This document shows, one piece after another, positions 54 to 48,415 of a stretch of DNA of 64,000 nucleotides. The notes beneath the pieces are model-generated. The model was given only the letters and a program-made list of their open reading frames with translations. It was not told the DNA's origin and ran no database searches. Location of the stretch: positions 1 to 64,000 of IMG/VR virus record IMGVR_UViG_3300027747_003046; one strand, given 5' to 3'. How positions within the stretch are numbered: the first letter of the stretch is position 1; each line of letters opens with the position of its first letter. The DNA comes from a virus. Made by a program: the position numbers and the translations under genes.

Positions 54-761
54 ATGTCTTTCTATCAACGTCGTTTTTATAAGCCTGCTCCAACGGCTTC
101 GCAGTATTCGGGTATCAATAATCGCGTCAACGATCCGACGCTGAAAGAACGTCTTGAAAAACTTCTTACGAATACTGATCTTCAACAGTATCCTAAGACT
201 GTTGAGTTTATGCGGTCCCTTCTTGAACAGTTCAACGCAAAAGGATCGCTCTCTCACAACCAAGTCAAGTGTATCGAGGACAATGAAAAACGATACAGTG
301 AAAACAATTCCGCTGAAAAGCGTGCCGCTATCCAAGCATGGCAAGCATCGTATGATGCGGACAAGCGAACAAAGATGCGTCTTGTTGCCAAGTGGTACAA
401 AGATATGGCTGATGCAGGAAGCCAGCCCTATTATTATCGTGAAACCTGCGAAAAGGTATTGTCGGAAGAAAACTACATTCCTTCCCAAGTGACCTACGAA
501 AAGATTGTAAACAATAAGTTTGCTCAACGCTATCTTGAAGCTAATGTAACTCCCGCAAAGTTTAATAATGGTGATGTTGTTGTTTTGACTGCTACGGGCA
601 AGGTAAAGAACTATACTAAAAACAACGATAATTCTTTTATTGTTGTTGAAGTCACCGACAAGGTTCGTGCTGCTGCTGGTTCTCGTTCTTACGGTCTTTT
701 GCCTATTGGTGATGATAATATTGTCTTTATTGAAGAACGATACTTGAAGGCTTCACGATGA
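54..761 (+). CDS. Unrecognised early protein, 235 aa
   Basis: I do not recognise the family. The N-terminal 120 residues are helical and rich in charged residues and Gln. The C-terminal 70 residues are beta-rich, with a stretch beginning FNNGDVVVLTATGKV that resembles an SH3/KOW-like barrel, the same fold suggested for the small proteins that follow. The start has AGGA about 7 nt upstream and lies behind an early promoter. The stop overlaps the next start (ATGA), so it heads a translationally coupled run to 1601. The opposite strand is open here, but only as a codon-bias shadow. Confidence 0.85.
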   Translation: MSFYQRRFYKPAPTASQYSGINNRVNDPTLKERLEKLLTNTDLQQYPKTVEFMRSLLEQFNAKGSLSHNQVKCIEDNEKRYSENNSAEKRAAIQAWQASYDADKRTKMRLVAKWYKDMADAGSQPYYYRETCEKVLSEENYIPSQVTYEKIVNNKFAQRYLEANVTPAKFNNGDVVVLTATGKVKNYTKNNDNSFIVVEVTDKVRAAAGSRSYGLLPIGDDNIVFIEERYLKASR

Positions 762-1006
762 GCTCTTTGCAATATAGTAAAAGGAATCCCCCGCCAGTAA
801 AGGTGGGGGATCTTCTTTATTTGTGTTTCGATTCTCTTGAAGAAGAAATTGGTTTTGGTATTGTATGTCGTGTTTATGAAAAACACGAACGAAAAATGAT
901 GATCGTACACTGGTCAAACTCTAAAAATCGTGTCATTACACCGTTTATGGAACACGATATTGAACATATCTCTTGGGGAGAGGTTATGACTTATCATGGT
1001 CAATAA
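758..1006 (+). CDS. Small SH3/KOW-like protein, tandem family I
   Basis: 82 aa. The motif VKVGDLLYLCFD followed by GFGIVCRVYE is the signature of a set of small proteins in this region: K-[VI]-G-[DTS]-L-[LVI]-[YF], a short acidic loop, then G-I-[IV] and a Val-rich strand. The pattern suggests a small SH3-like beta barrel; that is inferred from the pattern, not from a database match. It is coupled to the previous gene by ATGA overlap and overlaps the next gene by 11 nt. Confidence 0.8.
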   Translation: MSSLQYSKRNPPPVKVGDLLYLCFDSLEEEIGFGIVCRVYEKHERKMMIVHWSNSKNRVITPFMEHDIEHISWGEVMTYHGQ

Positions 1007-1211
1007 AATCTTTAAGATTGGCACACTCCTTTATGATGACGATGAAAAAGAATGGAATTTGATTGTTTCAGTAGAAAAAAAAGTAAATGGTTTTTTCTAT
1101 ACTATCTACGATTCTAGAACAGAAAAGGATCTTATAATGACAGGCTCTGGTTTAAATCGTATGGTAGAAAAAGAATACTGGAAAGTAGAATATGAGCCAG
1201 AAGAGGTTTAA
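996..1211 (+). CDS. Small SH3/KOW-like protein, tandem family I
   Basis: 71 aa. FKIGTLLYDDDEKEWNLIVSVE matches the family I signature: Gly-Thr-Leu-Leu-Tyr, an acidic turn with Trp, then a hydrophobic strand. It is closest in layout to the proteins at 2679 and 3251. It overlaps both neighbours, which indicates coupled translation. Function unknown. Confidence 0.8.
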   Translation: MVNKIFKIGTLLYDDDEKEWNLIVSVEKKVNGFFYTIYDSRTEKDLIMTGSGLNRMVEKEYWKVEYEPEEV

Positions 1212-1395
1212 GGTTGGTGATCTCGTGGAATACAATTTCCATAAACGAATTGGTGGTATTGGTATTATTATTGCCGTTCACGATGTGACAGATGCTATTT
1301 ATGACACAAAGCAGCGACTCTATTATGAGATTTTTTCTCAAACAGAAGAAAAGATGCCAATTATTGAAGGTTGTCACTTAAAAAAGATTAAGTAG
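1192..1395 (+). CDS. Small SH3/KOW-like protein, tandem family I
   Basis: 67 aa. RFKVGDLVEYNFHKRIGGIGIIIAVHD carries the family I signature. The start overlaps the end of the previous gene by 20 nt, and GAAAG lies upstream inside that gene. No catalytic motif is visible. Confidence 0.8.
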   Translation: MSQKRFKVGDLVEYNFHKRIGGIGIIIAVHDVTDAIYDTKQRLYYEIFSQTEEKMPIIEGCHLKKIK

Positions 1396-1397
1396 TT

Positions 1398-1601
1398 ATG
1401 CCAAAGTTTAAAATCTATTCAGCAGATACAGGAAGAACATTTTACTCGGAAGCATCTTTTGATCAACTGTTGAGGATTCTAGACATTCCAGAAATGGAAC
1501 ATTTAGCATTATATACCTCGGAGGTAGGAACAATCTGTGAGTTTTTGTTGAAACCGGCTCATACTGGTTTTAAGCTATTTGTAGAGAAGGTTTGCGATTA
1601 A
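1398..1601 (+). CDS. Unrecognised small protein, 67 aa
   Basis: Starts 2 nt after the previous stop, so it is in the same operon. The sequence begins MPKFKIYSADTGRTFYSEAS and does not carry the family I signature. A mixed alpha/beta protein is likely; no known domain was recognised. It is the last gene before the next promoter (1639). Confidence 0.75.
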   Translation: MPKFKIYSADTGRTFYSEASFDQLLRILDIPEMEHLALYTSEVGTICEFLLKPAHTGFKLFVEKVCD

Positions 1602-1638
1602 GTTTTACCATACAGGGAAAGAATCCTGTTCTTTGCTC

Positions 1639-1667
1639 TTGACGCGGGATCCGATCGGTGCTAGAAT
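1639..1667 (+). promoter_or_regulatory. Early sigma70-type promoter
   Basis: TTGACG (1639-1644), 17-bp spacer, TAGAAT (1662-1667), with an extended -10 (TGCTAGAAT). Predicted start is near 1674, giving a 26-nt leader for the zinc-knuckle gene. The leader contains GAGATCAC (1691-1698). Confidence 0.85.
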
Positions 1668-1699
1668 CGGACTGTCCCCAAACGCACACGGAGATCACT

Positions 1700-2293
1700 A
1701 TGGTTTATCGTCGCACCGTTCGTTGTCGTTATTGCTATAAGACTGGCCACAATCAACGCGGTTGTCCAGAAATGAAAAGCGAAGCCGCAAAGAATCCTAC
1801 TGGATGGGCAGCACGAAAGGTTGCTTCGTATAATACTAATGCGGCAGAAGGTGGTTCTGCTCGTTCGTGTTCTTATTGTCGTGATTCTGGTCACAATCGT
1901 AAGACTTGTAATAAGCTTATTGTTGACTTTTCTGCTGACATGAAGAAGTGCGCAGAGTTTCGCAAGAGCCTTTTACAGAATATGATGAAGACTGGTTTTG
2001 GTGTTGGTGCTCTTGTTGAGTCTCGTTATTACAGGGAAAATTCTCTACAATTTGTTTCCAAGATTGATTGGATGAATATTACCCATCTTGGAAGCCATTC
2101 TGTTTACTTGGAAGATGATTATTCTTCCTATGATATCAAGATGGAAAAGTTTAATATCATCACCAATACTTACGAAGATTACTATTACAAGATTGCTTCT
2201 GGTATCTCGCCTGAACTTGTCCAAAGTCAGGTTCCGGATGAATGGTTTTCTGGTCGCTCTCCATATCTTAATGAAAAGTATGGTATCAAGTAA
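1700..2293 (+). CDS. Double zinc-knuckle protein, probable RNA/ssDNA binding
   Basis: 197 aa starting MVYRRTVRC. It contains two CX2CX4HX4C knuckles, CRYCYKTGHNQRGC (residues 9-22) and CSYCRDSGHNRKTC (about 56-69), the type used by retroviral nucleocapsid and cellular CNBP-like proteins to bind single-stranded nucleic acid. The rest (about 90-197) is unrecognised and rich in Tyr and Asp. I chose ATG 1700 because the upstream in-frame ATG at 1658 precedes the predicted transcription start, and GGAG sits just before 1700. It is expressed from its own early promoter and ended by the terminator at 2309. Confidence 0.85.
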   Translation: MVYRRTVRCRYCYKTGHNQRGCPEMKSEAAKNPTGWAARKVASYNTNAAEGGSARSCSYCRDSGHNRKTCNKLIVDFSADMKKCAEFRKSLLQNMMKTGFGVGALVESRYYRENSLQFVSKIDWMNITHLGSHSVYLEDDYSSYDIKMEKFNIITNTYEDYYYKIASGISPELVQSQVPDEWFSGRSPYLNEKYGIK

Positions 2294-2308
2294 ATAAAAT
2301 ATCACCTG

Positions 2309-2328
2309 CCCACCTTATGGTGGGTTTT
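2309..2328 (+). terminator. Rho-independent terminator
   Basis: CCCACC-TTAT-GGTGGG followed by TTTT. It closes the zinc-knuckle transcript. Confidence 0.7.
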
Positions 2329-2346
2329 GGTATTAGAGAATTAAAT

Positions 2347-2529
2347 ATGAACTTGAAGATTGGCGATATTGTTATTCATAATAAAGATATTGGTATTATT
2401 CTATCTTTTAGTAAAAATACTGTTCATATTTATTGGAATGATGGTGTGACTCGTAGTCTCTATACAGATGTTCTGCGAAATATCCTTTCTAACAAGAAGT
2501 GGGAACACCATGACATTTCAAGCAGGTAA
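2347..2529 (+). CDS. Small SH3/KOW-like protein, tandem family I
   Basis: 60 aa, MNLKIGDIVIHNKDIGIILSF: the family I signature in its shortest form. An in-frame ATG at 2317 lies inside the terminator hairpin, so 2347 is preferred. The next gene starts inside its last seven codons. No promoter was found between the terminator and this start, so it may depend on read-through. Confidence 0.7.
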   Translation: MNLKIGDIVIHNKDIGIILSFSKNTVHIYWNDGVTRSLYTDVLRNILSNKKWEHHDISSR

Positions 2530-2692
2530 TTTTATTGTCCAGAATAATGGTAGTAGATTTGCTCTTATTGTGGATGTAAAAGAAGATTCACTAACACTAC
2601 TTTGGATGGATATTCAAAACGAACTTTTGTTTCCCAAATATCGCGCTACAAGTTTGATTAACACCAACAAGTGGAAGTATGTCACGACTTAA
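2510..2692 (+). CDS. Small beta-rich protein, probable tandem family I
   Basis: 60 aa, MTFQAGNFIVQNNGSRFALIVDVKEDSLTLLW. It is a divergent family member (AGNFIV in place of VGDLVY, then ALIVDV). It overlaps the previous gene by 20 nt and the next by 14 nt. The start was chosen by this coupling pattern, because the reading frame extends further upstream. Confidence 0.65.
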   Translation: MTFQAGNFIVQNNGSRFALIVDVKEDSLTLLWMDIQNELLFPKYRATSLINTNKWKYVTT

Positions 2693-2852
2693 AATTGGCA
2701 CACTTATTTTCGATGACGAAGATCAAGAATGGGGTATTATTATTGATATTGTAGATGAAAAGCATTATAATACTTCATGGGCTAAATCGACTGATCAAGT
2801 ATTGAATGATTTTGATTTCGAGTTAGACAGGTTTCATCTTTATGAAGTATAA
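2679..2852 (+). CDS. Small SH3/KOW-like protein, tandem family I (57 aa)
   Basis: 57 aa. It reads MSRLKIGTLIFDDEDQEWG and continues IIIDIVDEKHY; it ends at TAA 2850-2852, overlapping the next start. The signature IGTLIFDDED.EWGIII is nearly the same as in the proteins at 996 and 3251. It fills what would otherwise be a gap between coupled genes. Confidence 0.8.
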   Translation: MSRLKIGTLIFDDEDQEWGIIIDIVDEKHYNTSWAKSTDQVLNDFDFELDRFHLYEV

Positions 2853-3054
2853 AGTCGGTGATTTACTTTATCTTAAATTCAATACAACAATCTGGGATTT
2901 GAGTAAAAATTCACAAGATTGTCAAGAGGGACAAATCTTTATTGTTTCCTCTCAACATAAAGATATTAACGTATTTGTTATTTATAATCAACAAGATTGT
3001 TCATTCTCCGAATGGCATCCAGATCAAGTTGAAAAGCTATTTATGAAACTTTAA
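2842..3054 (+). CDS. Small SH3/KOW-like protein, tandem family I
   Basis: 70 aa, MKYKVGDLLYLKFNTTIWD. The second strand (GQIFIVSSQHK) follows a longer loop than in its paralogues. Coupled to both neighbours. Confidence 0.8.
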   Translation: MKYKVGDLLYLKFNTTIWDLSKNSQDCQEGQIFIVSSQHKDINVFVIYNQQDCSFSEWHPDQVEKLFMKL

Positions 3055-3258
3055 ATGAAAAAGGAATCTAAATACAAAGCTGGTTCTCTGTTATTCGATG
3101 AAATAGCCAATGAATTTGGTATAATCCTTAAAATTAAATGGAATTATTACAGCAAGACAAATAATATTTATTGCCATTTCCCTAATGGAGAGTGTATCAT
3201 ACCAGAATATCAGCTAGATGATTGGATTGAAGAAGAAAGGTTTGAGGTTTGTGACTAG
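3055..3258 (+). CDS. Small SH3/KOW-like protein, tandem family I
   Basis: 67 aa. The ATG directly follows the previous TAA. KYKAGSLLFDEIANEFGIILKIK carries the family signature. The C-terminal half has PNGECIIPEYQLDDW, a probable final beta strand and helix. Confidence 0.8.
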   Translation: MKKESKYKAGSLLFDEIANEFGIILKIKWNYYSKTNNIYCHFPNGECIIPEYQLDDWIEEERFEVCD

Positions 3259-3451
3259 AAAGAATAAGAAAACAAAGAACCCAAAGGTAGGTTCACTTGT
3301 ATATGATAAGGATCATAAAGATTGGGGAATTATTGTTAAAGTAGAAAAAGACAGTGATGTAATACAGTATACAATTCAGTTTGTTGGTGATCGTGAAGCT
3401 ATTGTCTTATCGGACATTCACGATAGCAAATATCAAGAGTGTTACGAATAA
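3251..3451 (+). CDS. Small SH3/KOW-like protein, tandem family I
   Basis: 66 aa from a GTG that overlaps the previous stop (GTGACTAG), with GAGG just upstream. PKVGSLVYDKDHKDWGIIVKVEKD is the family signature. An ATG at 3218 is in frame but would overlap the previous gene by 41 nt. The gene ends the first tandem block. Confidence 0.7.
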   Translation: MTRKNKKTKNPKVGSLVYDKDHKDWGIIVKVEKDSDVIQYTIQFVGDREAIVLSDIHDSKYQECYE

Positions 3452-3476
3452 GTTATAGTGTATGATGATCTGCGTA

Positions 3477-3494
3477 GTGATCTGTCTAGATCAC
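3477..3494. promoter_or_regulatory. Inverted repeat GTGATCT-N4-AGATCAC
   Basis: A perfect 7-bp inverted repeat with a GTCT centre lies about 60 bp upstream of the next -35. The same half site recurs in other early spacers (12668-12688; GAGATCAC copies elsewhere). It could be an operator or a weak hairpin; the role is inferred only. Confidence 0.45.
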
Positions 3495-3525
3495 ACTACA
3501 ACAAAAGAATCCTGCGTAGTTTCGT

Positions 3526-3581
3526 GGGGTTAGCGCTGCAGATCGAAAGGCCTTGACGGTTCGTCGGGTCCGTGTTAAGAT
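3526..3581 (+). promoter_or_regulatory. Early promoter with upstream GGGGTTAGCG element
   Basis: TTGACG (3553-3558), 17 bp, TAAGAT (3576-3581) with TG extension. GGGGTTAGCG at 3526-3535 ends 17 bp before the -35. The transcript would start near 3588, almost at the foot of an 8-bp GC hairpin (CCGCGAGC / GCTCGCGG, 3591-3612). Confidence 0.85.
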
Positions 3582-3644
3582 TGTTAGGCGCCGCGAGCAA
3601 TCCCGCTCGCGGGCCTCGGTGTCCGTTTTGTCCGGAGTGTTCCT

Positions 3645-4724
3645 ATGTCGTTCGGTATGTCTATTGACTTCGCTACTTTCAACCGTATTGTTTCGGCCGT
3701 TGTTGCTGAATCGAAACCTATTCTTATCCGTGGTCGTCACGGTATTGGTAAGTCCGAGCTTGTGTATCAGATCGCTCGTGATCTCGGGCTTCCCGTTGTT
3801 GAACGTCGTGCCTCGCAGATGACGGAAGGTGATCTTGTTGGTCTGCCTTCGATCAATGGCAATCGCACGTCTTTCAATCCTCCGGATTGGTTTAAGGAAG
3901 CTTGCGAACGTCCCGTTGCTCTGTTTCTCGACGAGGTTGATCGTGCGACCGTCGAGGTTCGTCAGGGTATCTTTGAACTTACCGATTCGCGTAAGTTGAA
4001 TGGTCACGTGCTTCATCCGGGCACTCGTATCTTTGCCGCTGTTAATGGTGGCAAGCATGGCCAGCAGTATCAGGTTGGTGAGATGGATCCTGCCGAGTTG
4101 GATCGTTGGTCTGTCTTTGACGTTGAACCCACGGTTGAAGATTGGCTTTCGTGGGCAAAGGACAATGTCCATGGTATGATCTGGGACTTTATCAATAATC
4201 ACCGCAATCATCTGGAACATACTGGCGAGTTTGAACCGAATAAGAAGTATCCTTCGCGTCGTTCGTGGAAGCGTTGTAATGATGTTCTCGTTCGTGCGGA
4301 TGCTCTGCGCGAAGATTTCAATAAGGATTCGATTCCGCTTGCTGCTGCTTTTGTCGGTTATGAAGCCGCAATCGAACTGGGTTCTTTCGTCCAGAACTAC
4401 AAGCGCGTCGTGACCCCCGATCAGATTATTGTTGAGGGCAAGGTTAACCTGACGGAGAAGTTTACTCTTAATGAGCATGTCCAGTTGATTGAAAAGATGG
4501 AAGCCAATAAGTGTTTCCATAATCTTCTGTCTCCGGAGCATATGAACAACGTTGCTACTTACTTCCTTACGCTTCCCAGCGAAGCCGCGATGAAGTTGTG
4601 GAAGATCATCGGTAAGCCACCCGCTCCCAAGGATAACACGATTGTCCTTCACAAGACGGTTATCAATGGTGTGAAGGTTGGTGATCACGTTACGAAGCTG
4701 CTGTCCGGTGAAAAGAAGAAGTGA
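3645..4724 (+). CDS. MoxR-type AAA+ ATPase
   Basis: 359 aa. Walker A GRHGIGKS (residues 30-37), Walker B LFLDE (93-97), sensor-1 Asn in AAVN (131-134) and an Arg in the ELDRW segment (about 154) are all present in the order of MoxR/CoxD-like AAA+ proteins. These ATPases usually act as chaperones for partner proteins with VWA domains, and such a partner is encoded at 5456 with a peptidase between them. The C-terminal 150 residues are not recognised. The leader is long (about 55 nt) and structured. Terminated at 4751. Confident as AAA+; the client is inferred. Confidence 0.9.
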   Translation: MSFGMSIDFATFNRIVSAVVAESKPILIRGRHGIGKSELVYQIARDLGLPVVERRASQMTEGDLVGLPSINGNRTSFNPPDWFKEACERPVALFLDEVDRATVEVRQGIFELTDSRKLNGHVLHPGTRIFAAVNGGKHGQQYQVGEMDPAELDRWSVFDVEPTVEDWLSWAKDNVHGMIWDFINNHRNHLEHTGEFEPNKKYPSRRSWKRCNDVLVRADALREDFNKDSIPLAAAFVGYEAAIELGSFVQNYKRVVTPDQIIVEGKVNLTEKFTLNEHVQLIEKMEANKCFHNLLSPEHMNNVATYFLTLPSEAAMKLWKIIGKPPAPKDNTIVLHKTVINGVKVGDHVTKLLSGEKKK

Positions 4725-4750
4725 GCAGCTTCCACAAATGAATAATGTAT

Positions 4751-4780
4751 AGCCCCCGCAAGGGGGCTTCTCCCTTTCTT
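4751..4780 (+). terminator. Rho-independent terminator
   Basis: AGCCCCC-GCAA-GGGGGCT, then a pyrimidine tail (tctccctttctt). It separates the MoxR gene from the next promoter. Confidence 0.75.
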
Positions 4781-4785
4781 CTAAC

Positions 4786-4814
4786 TTGACAACAACGAGA
4801 TCAGATGGTATAGT
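4786..4814 (+). promoter_or_regulatory. Early sigma70-type promoter
   Basis: TTGACA (4786-4791), 17 bp, TATAGT (4809-4814). Predicted start is near 4821, only 1-2 nt before the first ATG of the next gene. Confidence 0.8.
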
Positions 4815-4822
4815 TGTGAAAT

Positions 4823-5353
4823 ATGTCTAAAAAGAAACTACTTAACATTATGGCCCGTAAAACTTCCAATAAGCCAAAGGCTAAAAATGTTTGGCAATCA
4901 AACATTAATAAGATTGAGGAATGGCTTACTGGAAAAGGTTATCGTTTAATCAAGGGCAAAGAAAAGCACGTCGTGGATAGTGTAGACTTTGAGACTAAAA
5001 TTGTTTTCCTTGGCACCAGATCCACAGAGGAAAATCAGTTTTACAGTATCCTGCACGAGTGCGGACATATTGTTAACAGAACAAAAGATAGTTTCGCTAA
5101 AAAGTATAAAGTCCTAAAAGAATCCGAAACAGATCCAAAGAAGCAAAAGTCTATTCGATATCTTGTTGAAGAAATCGAAGAAGAAACAGAAGCTTGGAGA
5201 AACGGAGAAGTATTAGCAAATAAATTAAATATTCAGCTTGATACTGAAAAATATTACACATACGCTTCTAAATTTCTAATGGGATATATTGTAATGGCTG
5301 GTGAGGGCAAACAGTATGTTCTTGGAAGGCCAAGGGGCGAAAAGAATAAATAA
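4823..5353 (+). CDS. HExxH zinc metallopeptidase-like protein
   Basis: 176 aa. ILHECGHIV (HECGH at residues 78-82) is an HExxH zinc site, and the downstream helix EEIEEETEAWRNGEVLA offers the third Glu ligand, the arrangement of small gluzincins of the ImmA/IrrE type. The N-terminal 50 residues are basic. If ATG 4823 is used, the mRNA would be nearly leaderless; ATG 4850 (MARKTSN) is the alternative, without a clear Shine-Dalgarno sequence. It sits between the MoxR ATPase and the VWA peptidase and may belong to the same system. Confidence 0.8.
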   Translation: MSKKKLLNIMARKTSNKPKAKNVWQSNINKIEEWLTGKGYRLIKGKEKHVVDSVDFETKIVFLGTRSTEENQFYSILHECGHIVNRTKDSFAKKYKVLKESETDPKKQKSIRYLVEEIEEETEAWRNGEVLANKLNIQLDTEKYYTYASKFLMGYIVMAGEGKQYVLGRPRGEKNK

Positions 5354-5373
5354 GCTAGTAATTCGTTTCTCTC

Positions 5374-5402
5374 TTGACGCCTCGCCCGATCCGTGTTAGG
5401 AT
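5374..5402 (+). promoter_or_regulatory. Early sigma70-type promoter
   Basis: TTGACG (5374-5379), 17 bp, TAGGAT (5397-5402) with the TGTTAGGAT extension. Predicted start is near 5409. The 47-nt leader contains AGATCACC (5428-5435). Confidence 0.85.
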
Positions 5403-5455
5403 CGGGGTGTCCCGTTGTGTCCGCTGTCAGATCACCCTATAAAAAGGTCACGTCT

Positions 5456-6757
5456 ATGTCGTTCGATCTCAATATGGCTATGTTTCGTCTCTTGAAGAAG
5501 GAACCTTTCTTTGCAGCTATCTCGCGTTGCATTAGCAAGGTTGCAAGCAACGCCGTTCCCACGGCTGGTGTTCGTGTTAATCCTGACACGGGCTACTTTG
5601 AGATGATGTATAATCCAGACTTCTTTGACACTCTTGGAAATGGTGACGCTAATCGCCAAGAAGTCGAGATTCTTGGTGTATTGAAGCACGAGTTTTATCA
5701 TCTTCTTTTCGAGCATGTCACCGGACGTTTGCCCGAAGAAGGTATGAATCGAAACTGGAATATCGCCACCGATCTGGCTATCAATAGCCATATCGCTGAT
5801 GAACTTCCTGCTTTTGCGCTTGTTCCCGGCAAGTCGTATACTGACCCAAAGACGGGTCAGGTTCATGATATGTTCAAGGATATGGAATCCGGCTTGTCTG
5901 CCGAAGAATACTATATCCTCGTGAAGCAGAAGCAAGAGGAAAACAAGCAAAAGAATAAGGATAAGGGAGAAGGTCAAGGAGAAGGTGAAGGTGAAGGCGG
6001 TGGTGGTTCACCGTCTAATGGCGATGGTATGCCTGATTCCATGGATGATCATAGTGGATGGGCAACGGAAGGAACCGAAAACGTTGATAGTGTTACTCGG
6101 CAGATTGCGGCAGAACGTTTGAAAGAAGCGATGCAGGATGCCGTTGAAGAAGTTGTAAAGGAGGGTCGTGGTTGGGGTTCTGTTTCTCACCAGATGCAGA
6201 AGCAGATCATGGATTCTTTGAAGTCGCAGGTTGATTGGAAGTCTGTTCTGCGTTATTTCGTAAAGACTTCGCAAGCGGCGAACCGTTCTAACTCCATGAA
6301 GAAGATCAATCGCCGTTATCCGTATATCCATCCCGGTCGCAAGACTTCCCGCACGGCTCGTATTGCAATCTCGATTGATCAATCTGGCTCTGTTCACGAT
6401 GGTATGCTTGCTGCGTTCTTTGCTGAACTGAATAAGCTGGCAGAGATTGCTAGCTTTACTGTTGTTCCGTTCGATGATGCGGTGTTTGAAGATAAGGTCT
6501 ATGAATGGAAGAAGGGAACGAAGCACAAGCGTGAACGTGTTTTGTGTGGTGGCACTAACTTTGACGCCCCTACCAACTACGTGAACGACAATAACTTCGA
6601 TGGCCATATTATTTTGACTGATTTGTATGCTCCCAAGCCAAAGAACAGCAAGTGCCAACGTATGTGGATGACGACTGAATCTTGTGCTCGTTCACCATAC
6701 TTCCAAACGAATGAACGAATCATCGCGATTCCCGATAAGGATTGTGCCGATGAATGA
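5456..6757 (+). CDS. VWA-domain metallopeptidase-like protein (MoxR partner)
   Basis: 433 aa. The N-terminal domain has LKHEFYHLLFEHV (HEFYH at residues 78-82), as in the putative metallopeptidase domain of COG3864-type proteins. A Lys/Glu/Gly-rich linker spans about 155-185. The C-terminal VWA domain has the MIDAS motif DQSGS (308-312), a CGGTNF Thr loop and ILTD. The pairing of such a protein with a MoxR ATPase (3645) is well known in bacteria. ATG 5456 was chosen for AAGG upstream; the frame is open back to 5393, but that precedes the transcript start. Confidence 0.9.
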   Translation: MSFDLNMAMFRLLKKEPFFAAISRCISKVASNAVPTAGVRVNPDTGYFEMMYNPDFFDTLGNGDANRQEVEILGVLKHEFYHLLFEHVTGRLPEEGMNRNWNIATDLAINSHIADELPAFALVPGKSYTDPKTGQVHDMFKDMESGLSAEEYYILVKQKQEENKQKNKDKGEGQGEGEGEGGGGSPSNGDGMPDSMDDHSGWATEGTENVDSVTRQIAAERLKEAMQDAVEEVVKEGRGWGSVSHQMQKQIMDSLKSQVDWKSVLRYFVKTSQAANRSNSMKKINRRYPYIHPGRKTSRTARIAISIDQSGSVHDGMLAAFFAELNKLAEIASFTVVPFDDAVFEDKVYEWKKGTKHKRERVLCGGTNFDAPTNYVNDNNFDGHIILTDLYAPKPKNSKCQRMWMTTESCARSPYFQTNERIIAIPDKDCADE

Positions 6758-6770
6758 ATGAATAAATAAT

Positions 6771-6812
6771 AAGGTAGGGTGGTCGATTGACTACCCTGCC
6801 TTATACTTATTT
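6771..6812 (+). terminator. Hairpin terminator abutting the next start codon
   Basis: AAGGTAGGGTGGTC pairs imperfectly with GACTACCCTGCCTT (6771-6802), followed by a T-rich tail ending directly at the next ATG (6813). No Shine-Dalgarno sequence fits in between. Confidence 0.6.
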
Positions 6813-7106
6813 ATGATGCCAAAAACTCATTCAAGACATATGAAAACCTCATTCCAAAGAGGCGATCTTGTTGAGTATATTGGTATTGATAAGTTGAATC
6901 GTGGTGTTGGAGTTGTTCTAGAAGAAGTGCCTTATGATGGATTCTATGACGAAGACTCGGAAGACAATATTCTTTCTTGTGTAAGAATTTATTGGCAGGG
7001 TCTTGGTAGAGAAGAAACTTTACACAAAGCAAGAGTTCGTCGTATTGCGGAAGTTACAAAATTAAGAACAAAGAAAATCAACAAAGATGGCGCGGGAACA
7101 GAATAG
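6813..7106 (+). CDS. Small SH3/KOW-like protein, tandem family I
   Basis: Up to 97 aa. FQRGDLVEYIGIDKLNRGVGVVLEEV shows the family I signature, with a longer middle loop and a basic C-terminus. ATG 6813, 6816 or 6840 (MKTSFQRGD) are all possible starts and none has a clear ribosome binding site. It overlaps the next gene by 20 nt. Confidence 0.7.
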   Translation: MMPKTHSRHMKTSFQRGDLVEYIGIDKLNRGVGVVLEEVPYDGFYDEDSEDNILSCVRIYWQGLGREETLHKARVRRIAEVTKLRTKKINKDGAGTE

Positions 7107-7353
7107 AAAGAATACTAAAAAGCCGCTTCGTCGTGGTAATGTTTTTTCTAAAAAAACTCAACCATTCTTTATTGGCGATCTTGTTGATCTAAACCATACA
7201 CACCACCACCATTCTTTGCGAGATAAGATGGGCGTTGTTCTCGACGTAGAAAACAAAGAAGGTGAATGGTTTTTAAAGATTCAGTTTCAAGACGGAACAG
7301 AAGTAATCACCTATTTTGCGTATGTTCGACTTTTGGTCGGCATCGACGATTAA
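7087..7353 (+). CDS. Small SH3/KOW-like protein, tandem family I
   Basis: 88 aa. A basic N-terminus precedes FFIGDLVDLNHTHHHHSLRD and GVVLDVEN, the family I pattern with a His-rich loop (HTHHHH). It is the last of the contiguous family I genes. A GGGGTTAGAG element (7355-7364) directly follows its stop. Confidence 0.75.
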   Translation: MAREQNRKNTKKPLRRGNVFSKKTQPFFIGDLVDLNHTHHHHSLRDKMGVVLDVENKEGEWFLKIQFQDGTEVITYFAYVRLLVGIDD

Positions 7354-7398: not shown

Positions 7399-7671
7399 AT
7401 GACAACAAAAACATTCCTTATTTGTTATGAATTAGACCAGTTACCAACCGGTTTAAAAAAGTGGCACTATGTTCGCGAGAAACAGCGAATCATTTTACAT
7501 GTTTCAGCCAGAATTTATAAACAGATGAAGGCTATAAAAGAAGAAAGAAAAGGTGATTTAAAATATCGTGACCGTCTTGTTACAGATATTTTAAATGATG
7601 GTGCCCCAAGATGGTGGCCGGCAGAACTTGTATGGGAAATCGTTAATCGTGGTACAACTATGAACGATTAG
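7399..7671 (+). CDS. Tandem family II protein, 90 aa
   Basis: First of nine consecutive small genes. KQRIILHVSARIYK..., then YRDRLVTDILNDG and a C-terminal ELVWEIVNRG fit the family pattern: R-[VI]-[IL]-L, a variable helix, D-[IL]-L-x-[DG]-G, then a helix ending in [RN]-G. Family II is not known to me. Initiation signal unclear: no good Shine-Dalgarno sequence. Confidence 0.75.
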   Translation: MTTKTFLICYELDQLPTGLKKWHYVREKQRIILHVSARIYKQMKAIKEERKGDLKYRDRLVTDILNDGAPRWWPAELVWEIVNRGTTMND

Positions 7672-7683
7672 GTAGGAACAGGT

Positions 7684-7947
7684 ATGGATAAAACTTATAT
7701 TACAGGTCAGTATAAAGTGTTTATGACAGATGTTGTAGACAAATATGGTATGGCACGTCGTAGGGTATTGAAAATCCCAACTAATCTTTATGCTTACTTT
7801 GATAGTGTAAAGGCTTTTCCAGAAGGTAACGATGGCACCTTGACGGTTCATAAGATCGAGGATCTAGCTATCGAGGAATACATCGATCTAACATCGGCAG
7901 AACTCCTAAAACTAATCACGATCGGAACACCCGTTCAATATGAATGA
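7684..7947 (+). CDS. Tandem family II-like protein, 87 aa
   Basis: A divergent member: RRRVLKIPTNLYAYFDSV, then HKIEDLAIEEYIDLTSAELLKLITIG, keeping the beta strand, the Asp-Leu and the terminal helix ending in Gly. AGGAACAGGT lies upstream. It overlaps the next start by 8 nt. Confidence 0.75.
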   Translation: MDKTYITGQYKVFMTDVVDKYGMARRRVLKIPTNLYAYFDSVKAFPEGNDGTLTVHKIEDLAIEEYIDLTSAELLKLITIGTPVQYE

Positions 7948-8152
7948 TGAACCAAAAAACTATAAGATCATTTTGTATGATCACCTTGATACAAGATACC
8001 TTATTCGTATAAGTGATGTAGAGATCAATAGAACCGTTATGGGATCTTTTGATCGTATCCTTGTTTATGATATGTTGGACGGTAAAGAAAAGGCTTTGGC
8101 TCACGTTCTTGCCTATACAATCATCAGCAGAGGCGAAGTATTGGATGGCTAA
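7940..8152 (+). CDS. Tandem family II protein, 70 aa
   Basis: TRYLIRISDVEINRTV, VYDMLDGKEK, then HVLAYTIISRG fit the family layout. Coupled on both sides by 8-nt overlaps. Confidence 0.75.
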   Translation: MNDEPKNYKIILYDHLDTRYLIRISDVEINRTVMGSFDRILVYDMLDGKEKALAHVLAYTIISRGEVLDG

Positions 8153-8354
8153 AAAGCAATCGTTCCATGTTTATTTGTGGGATAATGAAGAAGGTGCTCG
8201 CTTTATTGTCCAGATGAGCGAAGAAGTAAGAAAGTCCATCCTTGATGGTATGGTAGGACGTTACTTGTGTGCTAATCTGTTGGATGGTGTTGAGCATTAC
8301 TACGATCATCGCTTTATCCACAAAATAATCAAGCGAGGGTTTAAGATTATATGA
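8145..8354 (+). CDS. Tandem family II protein, 69 aa
   Basis: Starts MAKKQSFHVYLWDNEEGARFIVQMS; the centre has CANLLDGVEHYY and the end RFIHKIIKRG, matching family II. ATG 8145 is preferred over an upstream in-frame ATG at 8049 because it gives the same 8-nt coupling as its neighbours. Confidence 0.75.
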   Translation: MAKKQSFHVYLWDNEEGARFIVQMSEEVRKSILDGMVGRYLCANLLDGVEHYYDHRFIHKIIKRGFKII

Positions 8355-8578
8355 TTCTTTTGGTTGACGGCACCGATGAACGCATTATGATCCTTATCAC
8401 GGATGAAGATAGGGAAAGAGTAGGTCGCGCAAAGGCAGGCGATAAGCCTTGGATTTATCTACCAAACATGATTCAAGGCAAGTCTCGTTTGTGTGCTTTG
8501 GATATGGTTTATCCAGGAATTTTTGAAGGTAAGAAAGAATACAGTTGGAATGAACTTACTGTAAACGTATTGGACTAA
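8351..8578 (+). CDS. Tandem family II-like protein, 75 aa
   Basis: Begins MILLVDGTDERIMILITDEDRE, the opening strand of family II. The second half (LPNMIQGKSRLCALDM) is divergent. ATGA overlap with the previous gene. Confidence 0.7.
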   Translation: MILLVDGTDERIMILITDEDRERVGRAKAGDKPWIYLPNMIQGKSRLCALDMVYPGIFEGKKEYSWNELTVNVLD

Positions 8579-8603
8579 CACGATCTGCGGTAGAATAAAC
8601 TTT

Positions 8604-8849
8604 ATGTTAATCCTGTATGAGTTTCCAATTTTAAATAAAAATCGTGGTAGAGTCATTTTCCATATAACGAGTTCTCTCATTAACGAGCTCAACTATGAAA
8701 TATCTAGCATGTATACAAAGAGTGTTTTTTATGTTGAAGATTTGCTAACAGGTGAACTGCGAGGATTATATACTGCGGATTTATATGAATTGATGACAAC
8801 AGAAGAACAATACATCCAGCTTGATAAGCACCACTTCTATATACTATAA
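8604..8849 (+). CDS. Tandem family II protein, 81 aa
   Basis: MLILYEFPILNKNRGRVIFHI, then YVEDLLTGELRGLY and a terminal helix: a clear family II member. A TAGAAT box lies at 8591-8596 with only a weak -35, so a separate promoter is possible but unproved. Confidence 0.75.
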   Translation: MLILYEFPILNKNRGRVIFHITSSLINELNYEISSMYTKSVFYVEDLLTGELRGLYTADLYELMTTEEQYIQLDKHHFYIL

Positions 8850-8906
8850 GACAAACTCTAATACTAGCTTCGCTATATAATCCTGCCGAGATATAAAGAA
8901 AACAAT

Positions 8907-9113
8907 ATGTATCTACTTTTGGAAGGCTATACTGCCACAGCAGGTGTGTTGCTAATGAGCAAAGGCAATAGGGTAATCCTATATAATCCAAACAAGAGGG
9001 AAAGACTCTTAAAGGATGTTGTAAGCCAATATACCGATCTGCTATCCGGTAAGATGGTTCATATTCGAAACATGGAACTGTTGGCTTTTATTCAAGATGG
9101 CTACGAGTTCTAA
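8907..9113 (+). CDS. Tandem family II protein, 68 aa
   Basis: MYLLLEGYTATAGVLLMSKG, GNRVILYNPN, YTDLLSGKMVHI, LLAFIQDGYEF: the clearest form of the family consensus. The 57-nt gap upstream has TATAAT at 8876-8881 without a good -35. Confidence 0.8.
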   Translation: MYLLLEGYTATAGVLLMSKGNRVILYNPNKRERLLKDVVSQYTDLLSGKMVHIRNMELLAFIQDGYEF

Positions 9114-9145
9114 ACCGTATTCTATCGAGGACAAGAGAAAAGACT

Positions 9146-9361
9146 ATGCTATTGTTGGTAGAAGGATGCCGCATCACAATAGATGCCAGGTTAAGATATA
9201 CAAAAGACAGCAGAATGATTCTACATCTTCCAGAGACTCTTGAAGAGATCAAAAAGTATAAAAGTATCACCTACTTTGTTGTTGATCTATTGACAGATAG
9301 AGGTATATATATTAACAGGAATGATCTAAAAGACTTCCTTGCCAAAGGCATCCAACTATAA
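9146..9361 (+). CDS. Tandem family II protein, 71 aa
   Basis: MLLLVEGCRITIDARLRYTK, SRMILHLPE, FVVDLLTDRGIYINRNDL, FLAKGIQL. Strand and helix order match the proteins at 8907 and 9393, with low side-chain identity, which suggests old duplications. Confidence 0.8.
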   Translation: MLLLVEGCRITIDARLRYTKDSRMILHLPETLEEIKKYKSITYFVVDLLTDRGIYINRNDLKDFLAKGIQL

Positions 9362-9392
9362 GCCTTTCTCCCCGAGGTTATAAGAATATAAT

Positions 9393-9608
9393 ATGTATAT
9401 TATACTAGATGACTATGAAGTAACAGTCTGTCGCCTATGTCATACATACACACCAAACAAAAGAGTTATCCTATACAGTCCAGAGAAAGAGATAGACCCA
9501 GTAAATAGAAAACCCTATATCCAAATGATTGATCTACTATCAGGTAAGAACGTTATTATATCACAACCCGAAATAGATAATTTATTGGTGAATGGTGTCC
9601 TATTATAG
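9393..9608 (+). CDS. Tandem family II protein, 71 aa
   Basis: MYIILDDYEVTVCRLCHTYT, KRVILYSPEKE, MIDLLSGKNVII, NLLVNGVLL. Last gene of the array. It is followed by the hairpin at 9616-9640, which can terminate in both directions. Confidence 0.8.
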   Translation: MYIILDDYEVTVCRLCHTYTPNKRVILYSPEKEIDPVNRKPYIQMIDLLSGKNVIISQPEIDNLLVNGVLL

Positions 9609-9814: not shown

Positions 9815-9907
9815 GTCTTAAAAAAAGTGAAAAAAAGTGATATAGGGCCTGGCAGATCAGTTACAGTTGGTGAACGGCTGTATACAAGCCCTATACCTTA
9901 CACGGAA

Positions 9908-9938
9908 TCATGCTGACATATGGCAAGATCGGTATAAA
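9908..9938. repeat. 31-bp direct repeat, copy 1
   Basis: Begins TCATGCTGACATATGG and ends AGATCGGTATAAA. It matches copy 2 (10011-10041) at 29 of 31 positions; the two differences are adjacent (CA versus TG). Confidence 0.85.
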
Positions 9939-9939
9939 C

Positions 9940-9997
9940 TGGCTGTTTAAAATGCGTTTCGCATTGTGAAGCCATTTTAACCGTTACAGCCATTTTT
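9940..9997 (+). terminator. Long interrupted hairpin with T tail
   Basis: TGGCTGT (9940-9946) pairs with ACAGCCA (9986-9992), with a second helix TTAAAATG / CATTTTAA inside and a small apical stem. TTTTTCTC follows. It may be a terminator or a structured RNA between the two direct repeats. Confidence 0.5.
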
Positions 9998-10010
9998 CTC
10001 TTTATAGAGT

Positions 10011-10041
10011 TCATGCTGACATATGGTGAGATCGGTATAAA
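10011..10041. repeat. 31-bp direct repeat, copy 2
   Basis: Second copy of the repeat at 9908-9938, 103 bp downstream in the same orientation. No third copy was found, so it is not a CRISPR array. Confidence 0.85.
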
Positions 10042-10098
10042 TGATCTCTCCGGATCATAGCAGATCATATACAGAATAAGAAAACCGGCACAAGATCA

Positions 10099-10154
10099 AG
10101 GGGTTAGGGCCGCAGAAGAGAAGGGCTTGACGTTTGGCCGGACGTGTGGCATAA
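10099..10154 (+). promoter_or_regulatory. Early promoter with upstream GGGGTTAGGG element
   Basis: TTGACG (10126-10131), 17 bp, CATAAT (10149-10154). GGGGTTAGGG (10099-10108) ends 17 bp before the -35. The predicted start (about 10161) falls in a 7-bp hairpin GTGTGCC / GGCACAC (10159-10178). Confidence 0.8.
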
Positions 10155-10225: not shown

Positions 10226-10612
10226 ATGTCGCTTTCGATTGATACTGCGTCTACTTCGTCCCCCGTTGCTCCTGCGCTCCTTCGTACGGTTGGTGAGGGT
10301 GAGACGATCACGGTAAAGGATATTCTGGATCTTGCTGGTGTCAGCAAGGTTACACTGTTGAAGATGATTGAATCTGCGGGTATTGTGCCTGTTGGTAAGG
10401 TTGTCTCCGGTGGTCGTGGTCGTCCTGCTTTTCTCTTTGATCGTGCGGATGTTCAGCGTATGCTTGATGCACGTCAGGCTTCGAAGCTGGCAAAGGATAA
10501 CAAGCCTGTTGCGGTGGCACCGGTGAATGATACTGCGGATGCGGTCGCAGAGCCGGATGATGATAATGTTGATCCGGATCTGGCTGCTGCTCTTGCTGCA
10601 CAGCAGGAATGA
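10226..10612 (+). CDS. Small HTH DNA-binding protein
   Basis: 128 aa. TVKDILDLAGVSKVTLLKMIESAGIVPVGKV (from about residue 30) reads as a helix-turn-helix, and GGRGRPAFLFDRADVQRML follows as a wing with a GRGRP AT-hook-like core, similar to MerR/excisionase-type helix-turn-helix proteins. The C-terminal 30 residues are acidic (DDDNVDPDLAAAL). AAAGGTG lies upstream. Its place beside the repeat-rich spacer and its own promoter make it a candidate regulator or origin-binding protein; that role is inferred. Confidence 0.7.
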   Translation: MSLSIDTASTSSPVAPALLRTVGEGETITVKDILDLAGVSKVTLLKMIESAGIVPVGKVVSGGRGRPAFLFDRADVQRMLDARQASKLAKDNKPVAVAPVNDTADAVAEPDDDNVDPDLAAALAAQQE

Positions 10613-14599: not shown

Positions 14600-15988
14600 A
14601 TGAAAATAAAATTAAAAAAGAACCGCATAAAAGAAACACTAAACCGTTTGGCTGAAATAAGCGCAAAATCAGTTGGCTTAGATCCCAAACGTGACACAAC
14701 GTTAAGTGATGATGACCTATTGTCCATGATAAGCGATAAGGATATCAATGCCAATCCAGGTTACGGTTTTATGTTGCGTAATGGTTATATCCCGGTTGGT
14801 AGAGATACAGTAGATGAAGAAGGTGATAGAGTATTTTCAGCTAAATTAGGTGAAGGCGCATTTGGTGTTGTATACGAAGCAACAAAAGCCGGAACAGATA
14901 AGCGTTATGCGGTTAAAATCACCGGAGATACGAATGAGGTGCGAATCCGCAAGATGTTAGAGGATGCTCGCGAAAAGCTGCCAGAATCGATTATGGCTCA
15001 TTTCGTGAGGGTTGATGATATCATTGAGGTTGAGAGCACACCGGTAAGCACCTATGGAACAAAAAAGAAGTTCCTTATTGCCATGCAATTGGTAAGACCA
15101 ATGAATAAATTTGAAAGCACAGCACTATTCAAGGGTGTTAGCGAACTTACAAGAATGACAGCAGATTTTAATTCAAAATATATTATTAAAGATCCAAAGA
15201 TATTCAAAGAATTGTTTAATAATCGTATTATGAAGTTTTCATTTGCTGATGATTTAATTTTTAATTTTTCTTCCATAAGAGCATCGAAAGGTTCAAAACC
15301 AACAGATAGAGAAAAAGAATCATTTGCTGAAAAGGCACATCAACTTGATCAAAAATTAAGTGATGACCTTATGAAAGGCTTGGATGATTCCCTGTTGGGT
15401 TTCTGGAAAGAAACAATGACAAGATTATTGGCTAGCCAAAATACGGATGATCTTTCAAGTTATGGTTCGCTTTATGGCTATGCTGCCGTTGAAGTTGTTG
15501 TGGAACTTTGTAAAGAAATTGCCAAGAAGGATGGCAAGCGTTACGAACTCTTGTTAAAAGAAATGGGTCTTGGTGAGGCTTTGGAACGTGATGGTCCGTT
15601 AGAAGATTATTTATTTGATAGAATAGTAAATCTTTCTTCACAATTTGAACACGGTATGAGAAACGAATGGAAAGATTTTATTAAAAACCGTTACGGTAAA
15701 GAACAAGGCGAATTCAAAATGAAATATGCCTATGGTGATTTTGTAAATACACTTAAAGCCGGCGAAGACAAAGGGAAAATTAGGGAAAAATTTAACGAAA
15801 TTGCCGAAAAAATGCCCGAAAAAGTGAAAAATTTTATGGGTGCTTTGATGACGCTTGCCCTCGACGAAGGGATTTTGTGGCGCGATTTGCACGAAGGTAA
15901 TGTTATGATTGACCCGCAAACGCGTGAATATGTTGCGGTTGATGTTGGATTGTTTTCAACAGATAGTGTATTAAAACAGCGTTTTTGA
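14600..15988 (+). CDS. Eukaryotic-type Ser/Thr protein kinase-like protein
   Basis: 462 aa. The N-lobe shows a glycine-rich loop LGEGAFGVVYE (residues 83-93) and the VAIK-type Lys in RYAVKIT (K106). The catalytic parts appear only at the C-terminus: WRDLHEGNVMID (D429, N434) in place of HRDLxxxN, and VDVG (D448) in place of DFG. About 250 helical residues separate the two, an unusual insertion, and little of a C-lobe follows. All key residues for ATP binding and phosphotransfer are present, so activity is plausible. No Shine-Dalgarno sequence is evident. Confidence 0.8.
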   Translation: MKIKLKKNRIKETLNRLAEISAKSVGLDPKRDTTLSDDDLLSMISDKDINANPGYGFMLRNGYIPVGRDTVDEEGDRVFSAKLGEGAFGVVYEATKAGTDKRYAVKITGDTNEVRIRKMLEDAREKLPESIMAHFVRVDDIIEVESTPVSTYGTKKKFLIAMQLVRPMNKFESTALFKGVSELTRMTADFNSKYIIKDPKIFKELFNNRIMKFSFADDLIFNFSSIRASKGSKPTDREKESFAEKAHQLDQKLSDDLMKGLDDSLLGFWKETMTRLLASQNTDDLSSYGSLYGYAAVEVVVELCKEIAKKDGKRYELLLKEMGLGEALERDGPLEDYLFDRIVNLSSQFEHGMRNEWKDFIKNRYGKEQGEFKMKYAYGDFVNTLKAGEDKGKIREKFNEIAEKMPEKVKNFMGALMTLALDEGILWRDLHEGNVMIDPQTREYVAVDVGLFSTDSVLKQRF

Positions 15989-17626: not shown

Positions 17627-17644
17627 AACCACAGGAGCGTGCAT

Positions 17645-18583
17645 ATGCTAGGCTTATGTTGCCAATTCCTTCAACCTTTTAAGAAAAGGAATGGCCTTGT
17701 AGAAAATAAAAATATTATTACGGAAAAGAGTCTGCAACTTGGTGCTTACAAGAGCAACAAGTATACAGTCAATCGTATTTCTGCAACATACCACAACAAT
17801 GTTGATGAACACTTAAAAATTGTTCCAAAGCTTGTTGAAAATAAAATTAAGTCATTCCGACTTTCAAGCAGTTTGTTTCCACTTTACGAATTCACCAAGG
17901 AAACAATTTGGAATGACGATATTCTACGTCGTAAACTAAAAAAACTTGGCGACGAATTTAAGAAGGCCGGTATTCGTGTAACAACACATCCGGGTCAATT
18001 CACTATTATCAATAGTGATGCAAGTCACGTAATCACCAATTCAATTGCTGAATTGGAATATCATGCTTGGATTTTTGATCAGATGGGTCTTGATCAAACG
18101 CCATTCAATGCCATCAACATTCACGGTGGCAAGCGTGGTAATTCTAAACAGTTGGTTGAGTCAATTGGTAAATTGCCAGATAATGTTCGCAACCGTCTTA
18201 CACTCGAAAACGATGAACGTTGTTTTTCTGTTAAGCAGTTGATGCATATCAATAAAGAAACTGGTATTCCAATTGTTTTTGATTCTCATCATCACCAGTT
18301 CAATCAGGATGGCTTCAATACAGAAGATGCCTCCACTCACTCGATTCTAACTTGGAAACGCAATGGCGAGTATTTTAAGCCGTTACAGCACCTATCCAAT
18401 ACAGAGCCGGGAATGGAGAATGGTTCATTTCCAGACCGAAGGAAACATAGCCAATATATTCACTATGTTCCAGACTGTCAATTAGAACTAGCAAAACAAA
18501 ATCTAATTGATCTAGATGTTGAAGCCAAGATGAAAAACTTGGCTATTATGAAAATGCGTAAAGACTTCAATATTGAACTATGA
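17645..18583 (+). CDS. uvsE: UV damage endonuclease, UvdE/UvsE family
   Basis: 312 aa. The conserved features of the TIM-barrel UVDE family are visible: a start like GLCCQF, RISATYHNN with SFRLSSSLFP, THPGQFTIINS, INIHGGKRGNS, LTLENDE and IVFDSHHHQFN. The His, Glu and Asp side chains in these motifs bind the metal ions. The enzyme nicks DNA 5' of UV photoproducts. ATG 17645 has AGGAG 7 nt upstream. It lies directly behind its own early-type promoter, so repair of phage DNA early in infection is likely. Confidence 0.92.
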   Translation: MLGLCCQFLQPFKKRNGLVENKNIITEKSLQLGAYKSNKYTVNRISATYHNNVDEHLKIVPKLVENKIKSFRLSSSLFPLYEFTKETIWNDDILRRKLKKLGDEFKKAGIRVTTHPGQFTIINSDASHVITNSIAELEYHAWIFDQMGLDQTPFNAINIHGGKRGNSKQLVESIGKLPDNVRNRLTLENDERCFSVKQLMHINKETGIPIVFDSHHHQFNQDGFNTEDASTHSILTWKRNGEYFKPLQHLSNTEPGMENGSFPDRRKHSQYIHYVPDCQLELAKQNLIDLDVEAKMKNLAIMKMRKDFNIEL

Positions 18584-41731: not shown

Positions 41732-43244
41732 GAAAACCAAGCTATTAGTAATAAGTGATCATCCGTTGACCTGAAGGTTATTTAGCGGATGTAAAATCGG
41801 GTGAATTGCTGGAAACTCTTGAAGATTTATATACTACAGCATAGTTGGAAACGACAAGTGCGAAAGTCAAAAAATACAAATCATAAGACAATCAGCAGCC
41901 AAGCATCTGTCCGGAAACGGTGATGAAGGTTCAGAGACTACGGTTAGCCTAACATATCTTTTTGATATTATGGTGATGATCCGACAGCGCCCGACTCGTT
42001 TAAACGATGATGATATAGTCCAAAATACTACTATGTGGTATAATGTAAGTCCTTCTGGTGTCGGCACTCAGACGAAATATATGATTGATCATCTCCATAA
42101 GACAGGTAAATACCAATTTGTTTGTTTGGGTGGTGCTGTAAAGCATCATGATTACCGTCCACAGAAATTTGATGTATACGGTGACGATTTGCTCGTTATT
42201 CCAGTCGATGGATATGGAACACCCGATATAATTCGTGCTGTATTGCGAGATCATAAACCAGACGCACTTTGGTTTATGACAGATCCACGCTTCTATGATT
42301 GGCTTTGGGATATGGAAGATGAAATACGTAATAAGATTCCATTAATCTATTATCACGTATGGGACAACTATCCATATCCAAAATTTAATAAACCATTCTA
42401 TGATTCAAATGACGTAATTGCTACAATTTCTAAACTAACTGACGACATTGTTAAAACAGTAGCTCCTACTGTTAAGTCAGTTTATCTTCCACACAGTGTG
42501 GACATGAAAGCGTTTAGCAAATTACCACAGCTAGATATTGATCGTATTCGTAAACAGCACTTTGGCGATAAGTTCCTTGTATTCTGGAATTCAAGAAACG
42601 CTAGACGTAAAATGTCCGGTTCAGTTGTTTGGTGGTTCAAAGACTTTCTGGATATTGTTGGTAAAGACAAAGCTTGCCTCCTAATGCACACTGATCCAAA
42701 AGATGGTCACGGACAAGATCTGGAAGCAATTATCGTAGAGCTTGGATTGACAAATGGTGAAGTTAAATTCTCAAAGAATCGTTCACCAATCCAAGAAATG
42801 GTTGCGATGTATAATGCTGCTGATGTTACAGTTTGTATCTCAGACGCAGAAGGTTTCGGTCTAAGTTGTCTTGAATCACTTGCCTGCGAAACACCTGTAA
42901 TTGCTAATATGACAGGCGGCTTACAAGAGCAAGTATTCAACGGGCAGGAGTATTTCGGGGTTGGCATCAAACCAGCGTCAAAAGCCGTTATAGGCTCTCA
43001 GCAGGTGCCTTATATCTATGAAGATCGCGTCTCAAAAGAAGACTTCGTTGGTGCTCTTGTAAAGATGTATCAAATGAGTAAAGAAGAACGCGCAGAACTT
43101 GGTAGAAAAGGCCGTCAACACCTTGTAGAAAATTATAATCCAGATATACTATTGCCAAAGTGGGATGAGCTAATTCAAGAAGCCGTTCAGCCCGGTGTTT
43201 GGGAAAATAGAAAATATAATCGTTGGGCTTTGAAAACACTTTGA
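41724..43244 (+). CDS. GT4-type glycosyltransferase, split by a group I intron
   Basis: Exon 1 is 41724-41766 (14 codons plus 1 base), exon 2 is 42046-43244. Joined length 1242 nt, 413 aa, one frame. The joined N-terminus MSKKTKLLVISDHPLSPSGV has the strand and Gly loop expected of a GT-B enzyme; without splicing, translation stops at TGA after MSKKTKLLVISDHPLT. ISDAEGFGLSCLESLACETPV near the C-terminus is the GT4 nucleotide-sugar-binding segment. First gene of the glycan locus. Confidence 0.9.
41767..42045 (+). other. Group I self-splicing intron, 279 nt, no ORF
   Basis: P1: exon CATCCGT pairs with intron GCGGATG, with the required U-G pair at the splice site, extended by TGACCT/AGGTTA. P10: ATTTA pairs with exon 2 TAAGT. 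Core strands: AATTGCTGGAAAC (P), ATCAGCAGCCAAG (Q, 41890-41902), GTTCAGAGACTA (R, 41929-41940), GATATAGTCC (S, 42012-42021); P7 is GACTA/TAGTC. P9 is ATACTA/TGGTAT. The last base is G in TATAATG, as in T4 td (ACATAATG). Closest in plan to the T4 group IA introns. Confidence 0.93.
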
Positions 43245-43255
43245 TTGGAGATAAG

Positions 43256-46077: not shown

Positions 46078-46104
46078 TGAATTAGAAAAATTCCGGAGCG
46101 TATA

Positions 46105-48412: not shown

Positions 48413-48415
48413 TCT

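Follow-up and report, generated by a model that had tools for sequence, protein, structure and literature searches.

A tandem array of nine strongly diverged small proteins in a T4-type phage: evidence for one family with a predicted common fold

Phage accessory genes mostly remain unexplained when they are considered one by one, and a run of nine small genes on the contig of a T4-type myovirus raises the question of whether these genes are unrelated or are copies of one protein, and of what use nine versions of such a protein could be to a phage. The stretch of DNA analysed here (the window) comprises 64,000 bases out of a 78,417-base virus record and carries T4-type genes and twelve tRNAs. 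Its gp6-like baseplate gene finds its best isolate matches in Microcystis and Flavobacterium phages, at an identity of approximately 30%.

The nine genes are intact and follow one another head to tail on the plus strand from 7399 to 9608. The first is p1 (7399..7671, 90 aa), followed by p2 (7684..7947, 87 aa), by p3 (7940..8152, 70 aa), whose start overlaps the end of p2, and by p4 (8145..8354, 69 aa), whose start overlaps the end of p3 and which is concealed within a longer TTG-started ORF (8049-8354). The gene p5 (8351..8578, 75 aa) shares an ATGA overlap with p4, and p6 (8604..8849, 81 aa) encodes a protein with a C-terminal extension. The array is completed by p7 (8907..9113, 68 aa), p8 (9146..9361, 71 aa), and p9 (9393..9608, 71 aa). 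Codon usage is positive in the reading frame for all nine genes and negative in all the other frames, so that the tandem array of nine genes of 68-90 codons described by the initial annotation stands, each of them being a coding ORF.

Comparison was made with a relative which is 84% identical to the window in the metallopeptidase/VWA gene. This relative, L002, is taken from a 187,750-base contig, and it holds seven further copies (Q1-Q7), three of which are located 3' of two small genes of the KVGDLV type (see below), while the other four lie past an HTH gene and two tRNAs. The HTH-like gene of the window (10226-10612), which gives a sub-threshold match to HTH_17, has been found only here and in the contig of L002; the array precedes it in the window, and the family flanks it on both sides in L002.

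The relationship among the copies was examined by leave-one-out profile tests, in which each of the 16 copies had to be retrieved from among 6,983 background ORFs by a profile made from the remaining ones. Twelve of the 16 ranked first; p4 did so with an E value of 0.35, and the other eleven had values from 1.6e-8 to 0.007. From the array, these included p6-p9 (2.4e-7 to 2.7e-6), p3 (0.007), and p4. Individually, p1, p2, p5, and Q2 did not reach significance in these tests among the ~7,000 ORFs, and their inclusion is the weakest part of the proposed family. An all-against-all comparison of the nine proteins reveals two clear clusters, p3-p4-p5 and p7-p8-p9. The protein p5 is tied to the family via p3 (phmmer 1e-4), and p2 via its likely ortholog in L002, Q1 (9847-10101), with 30-36% identity and a tree support of 98/98. 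The weakest link by sequence is that of p1, through p3 and p4 (BLASTP against a tiny database, E 0.002-0.008). When the two halves of the family (p1-p5/Q1-Q3 and p6-p9/Q4-Q7) were aligned separately, their profiles matched in register (hhalign P = 5.3e-6). The tree of the 16 copies is largely unresolved, and the only cross-phage pairs that it resolves are p2-Q1 and p7-Q5 (90/88), p7 being likewise a likely ortholog of its partner. Identity between copies within the array is only 9-34%, but the leave-one-out ranks and the profile-profile match exceed chance, in agreement with the shared layout that had been proposed despite this low identity. Taken together, these data support the assignment of the nine array genes and the seven L002 genes to one protein family, with the four copies mentioned above as its least secure members.

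The two motifs by which this layout had been defined need to be relaxed. R-[VI]-[IL]-L-[YH] fits literally in three of the nine array proteins and D-[LIM]-L-x-[GD] in six, and both are consequently too strict as written. Nevertheless, the Arg of the former, located in strand 2, is invariant in 16/16 copies, and the Asp position of the latter, with which strand 3 ends, is occupied by Asp or Asn in all 16.

AlphaFold2 models were made for p7 and p4. The p7 model, built with all 16 alignment rows, shows the order strand-strand-helix-strand-strand-helix with a pLDDT of 91.4. The p4 model, built with the rows of p1-p5 and Q1-Q3 only, exhibits the same order with a pLDDT of 95.6. Diverging structure predictions would speak against a single fold, and the agreement between these two models in element order, obtained for p4 in the absence of any p6-p9 row, favors it. 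From these two modelled proteins, a common fold and element order are predicted for the whole family. Thus, although the sequences within the array have drifted very far apart, profile and fold evidence still links them, a warning that genes as diverged as these should not be dismissed as unrelated orphans.

A search of both models against the PDB with Foldseek yielded no significant match, and nothing significant was found in a viral library. The listed matches of p7 are SH3 domains, and they are weak (best E 0.043, probability 0.87, TM 0.38-0.50), while SH3, PWWP, and Tudor domains recur, also weakly, with p4 (E > 1; E 1.5). Barrels of this kind, such as the SH3 domains of Yes/Fyn and p85beta, the PWWP domain of WHSC1L1, and the capped Tudor domain of Sds3, dominate or recur among the structure matches of both models. 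They differ from the phage proteins in that the E values are 0.04 or worse, the TM scores do not exceed 0.5, the phage models contain two helices, and there is no sequence match. As SH3 domains are abundant in the PDB, this resemblance is a lead rather than an assignment. The scaffold would probably be an SH3/Tudor-like small barrel with a C-terminal helix as a cap.

The 16 aligned copies do not contain a conserved catalytic set. In addition to the Arg and the Asp/Asn, Gly is frequent or near-invariant at two places, the turn between strands 3 and 4 and the position following the last helix. Hydrophobic residues occupy the core positions in an alternating pattern, and many of the positions between them vary at an entropy of at least 3 bits. 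This distribution suggests that the Arg-Asp pair is structural and that the family would lack enzyme activity. The net charge ranges from -10 to +5, with 11 of the 16 copies being acidic; this lack of a conserved charge led to the rejection of a reading of the proteins as DNA mimics. Similarly, a capsid-protease-like L-x-E-G sequence near the N-terminus appears in three copies only (p7, p8, and Q6) and does not represent a shared processing site.

The fast divergence noticed in the initial annotation is supported by the comparison of the two phages. The AAA and VWA neighbors are 79% and 84% identical between the window and L002, whereas the best cross-phage pairs of array proteins reach just 30-37%. 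Other small neighboring genes also diverge (they are mostly 31-60% identical), so that the array stands at the extreme of a region in which rapid change is common, and is not an isolated case.

Some of the copies may have retained a trace of the way in which they multiplied. A leader of the form CGAG...AAGA precedes p8 (9126..9145, plus strand) and p9 (9373..9392, plus strand). The leader of p7 (8875..8906, plus strand) is a near form of the CGAG...A-x-AAGA motif and contains a stretch, TATAATCCTGCCGAG, that recurs without change in the Q7 leader of L002. The strict form CGAG...A-x-AAGA is found within 30 bases before p8, p9, Q4, Q6, and Q7 (5/16 family genes) and before only one of the 1,665 other ATGs of the window and L002, counts that are descriptive, as the data had been inspected before the motif was defined. 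These leaders fit the duplication of a gene together with its leader. Even when two mismatches are tolerated, CCGAGNTATAA as a leader motif is no commoner than chance across the window, and it was therefore rejected as a general promoter. A scan of viral contigs with a 15-base leader matched 22 contigs, among which only that of L002 carries the family.

Among the sequences searched, the family is restricted to these two related phages. Its profile finds matches in the window record and in the contig of L002 and none at E <= 0.1 in ~50 other related contigs. When 2.9 million viral contigs were scanned for patterns taken from p7, from p9, and from p7 and Q5 as a pair, a search whose reach is limited to close relatives, the contig of L002 was the only one recovered apart from L090, where the match proved to be a chance occurrence inside an unrelated protein. 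No credible match emerged from a tblastn search of 50,697 phage records, and none above chance was obtained in PHROGs and NCBIfam (16 members) or in Pfam (nine array members), the best single E value in these libraries being 0.005, for one of the 16 members. Neither was there any significant match among PDB sequences. The description of the family as unrecognised accordingly holds across all of these collections.

The array is embedded in a block of small genes. Directly 5' of it lie two small proteins of the KVGDLV type (6813..7106 and 7087..7353, both on the plus strand), which are not members of the family. They belong to a set of tandem proteins of ~50-100 aa with the consensus KVGDLV...GIVV...V.W, KOW/SH3-like by eye, whose loci include 758-3451 and 6813-7353 in the window, 137-6026 and 9310-9838 in L002, and others in L035, L050, and further contigs. 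Of the 81 sequences searched with an iterated profile, 78 contain members of this set, 540 in total, invariably on the plus strand and with up to 20 per locus. The set, which has almost no Pfam or PHROGs match, is thus far more widespread than the array family. Kinship between both families was suspected because their C-terminal halves are alike and one of the KVGDLV-type ORFs of L002 (3321-3584) is the top background hit for three members, but it was rejected at the level of sequence: hhalign gave P values of 0.4-0.6 for the full family, including against the deep 540-sequence profile, and of 0.47 and 0.06 for its sub-profiles, and the GDL motif is absent from the array family.

Upstream of this block, after the metallopeptidase/VWA gene, a strong hairpin of 16 pairs is found (6769..6804, plus strand; -30.9 kcal/mol, z -9.6), and L002 exhibits another of different sequence in the matching place (9240-9312; -29.7 kcal/mol, z -6.8). 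The hairpin may end the transcription of the upstream module. In a promoter scan, promoter-like sites were no commoner than in shuffled sequence, and the early expression attributed to the array by the initial annotation is therefore unsupported. Several other features of the window deserve mention. The region 3645-6757 encodes an AAA ATPase (AAA_5) adjoining the DUF2201 metallopeptidase/VWA gene, and at least 161 relatives of this second gene are present in viral contigs. A 462-aa ORF (14600-15988) shows by eye a kinase-like glycine loop (GEGAFGVVYEA) and an RDLHEGNV sequence, and it could be a phage protein kinase. Also by eye, an ORF at 17639-18583 resembles UV damage endonuclease (UvdE), and a cluster of glycosyltransferase-like and nucleotide-sugar genes (GDP-mannose dehydratase/fucose synthase-like) occupies 41970-50904. 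Finally, a 2,143-aa ORF 5' of the baseplate genes (55000-61431) has no tblastn match in the 50,697 phage records.

What, then, could the array be for? The explanation that we favor, although we grant it only about an even chance, is that the genes are tandem paralogs of a small non-enzymatic scaffold, diversified to bind macromolecules of the host or of its defences. Binding is what we infer from the lack of catalytic conservation, and the nature of the targets and the timing of action would likewise be matters of interpretation. A role against host proteins or host defences, as had been put forward from the sequence, is plausible, and an anti-defence role in particular would be compatible with the data since a conserved core with a hypervariable surface suits such a role. 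According to this model, a scaffold of ~70 aa would have arisen in, or been taken up by, one narrow phage lineage, and it would have multiplied through local duplication, at least partly along with a short leader. The copies would then have diversified by keeping the folding core and changing the surface in each, so that, during takeover, the macromolecule bound would most likely differ from copy to copy and belong to the host or to its defences; copies could be gained, lost, and re-targeted quickly. More tentatively, and with the chances rather against it, this lineage-specific binding scaffold may serve as a repertoire in which the fold is kept and the surface is re-targeted copy by copy, allowing one locus to block many host proteins or defence alleles. 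The nine natural variants, together with the seven of the related phage, would make it possible to examine whether the members of a tandem array come to be aimed at different host proteins.

Other readings of the same data are less probable. The proteins could be nucleic-acid-binding small barrels which alter host transcription, the nucleoid, or translation, as proposed for T4 MotB, an early DNA-binding protein with a predicted KOW domain (PMC7827196). Structure matches that are mostly SH3, Tudor, and PWWP domains point in this direction, as does a block that opens with two proteins of KOW/SH3-like appearance; however, the predominantly acidic and non-conserved charge and the lack of profile similarity to the KVGDLV family make this reading rather doubtful. 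A copy-number expansion drifting under weak selection, which would leave a relic array with no specific function for each copy, might account for the very high divergence and for a copy number and position that vary (in L002 the family is split around the HTH/tRNA block). Drift would break reading frames first, but none of the 16 copies is interrupted, in-frame coding is seen for the nine of the window, and core positions are kept in all, which renders such a relic unlikely.

It is still less likely that the proteins are packaged in the capsid and injected, as in the case of the T4 internal proteins Ip1-3. They are small, multiple, and non-conserved in a T4-type phage, and the T4 proteins are themselves diverse, each being specific to one restriction enzyme (PMC12373910). 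Nevertheless, no common leader peptide is visible in the alignment, by which this was judged, and the N-terminus corresponds to predicted strand 1. Lastly, the nine genes could be unrelated small ORFs of like size whose similarity comes from generic strand and helix patterns. The lack of significance of p1, p2, and p5 on their own is consistent with this, and it could hold for p1, but it is disfavored for p3, p4, and p6-p9 by the leave-one-out ranks, the profile-profile match, the two concordant fold predictions, and the shared leaders, and as an account of the whole array we consider it very improbable. The diversified binding scaffold hence remains the preferred explanation.

Several systems of phage T4 can be compared with this locus. 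The internal proteins Ip1-3 carry a characteristic N-terminal packaging signal and are encoded in two loci, while the array genes form one, and such a signal was not seen in the array proteins, as judged from the alignment. Like the array, they are several small diverse proteins of one phage, in their case each with its own host target, as each blocks a different GmrSD subtype (PMC12373910), and in the libraries searched they show no sequence link to the array family. MotB is an early host-takeover protein that binds DNA and combines a predicted SH3-like KOW domain with a predicted OB-fold (PMC7827196); it differs from the array proteins in having two domains and in being highly conserved in Tevenvirinae, and no sequence relation between them was found. 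In T4, selection also leads to the tandem multiplication of the counter-defence gene tifA through recombination at short repeats (PMC9391042). The dmd-tifA region, with its small counter-defence proteins in tandem copies, offers an analogy to the array, but what is amplified there is a single gene whose copies are recent, unlike the array copies with their 9-34% identity. A parallel in organization is offered by the hyperplastic regions of T4-type phages, in which blocks of non-conserved genes lie between conserved modules and are thought to permit host adaptation (PMC2984593). The array is also a block of non-conserved genes, but unlike typical hyperplastic regions it consists of a single identifiable family, present nine times and predicted to share one fold. 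The type of locus is already known, and it is the family and its arrangement as a single-scaffold array that are new here.
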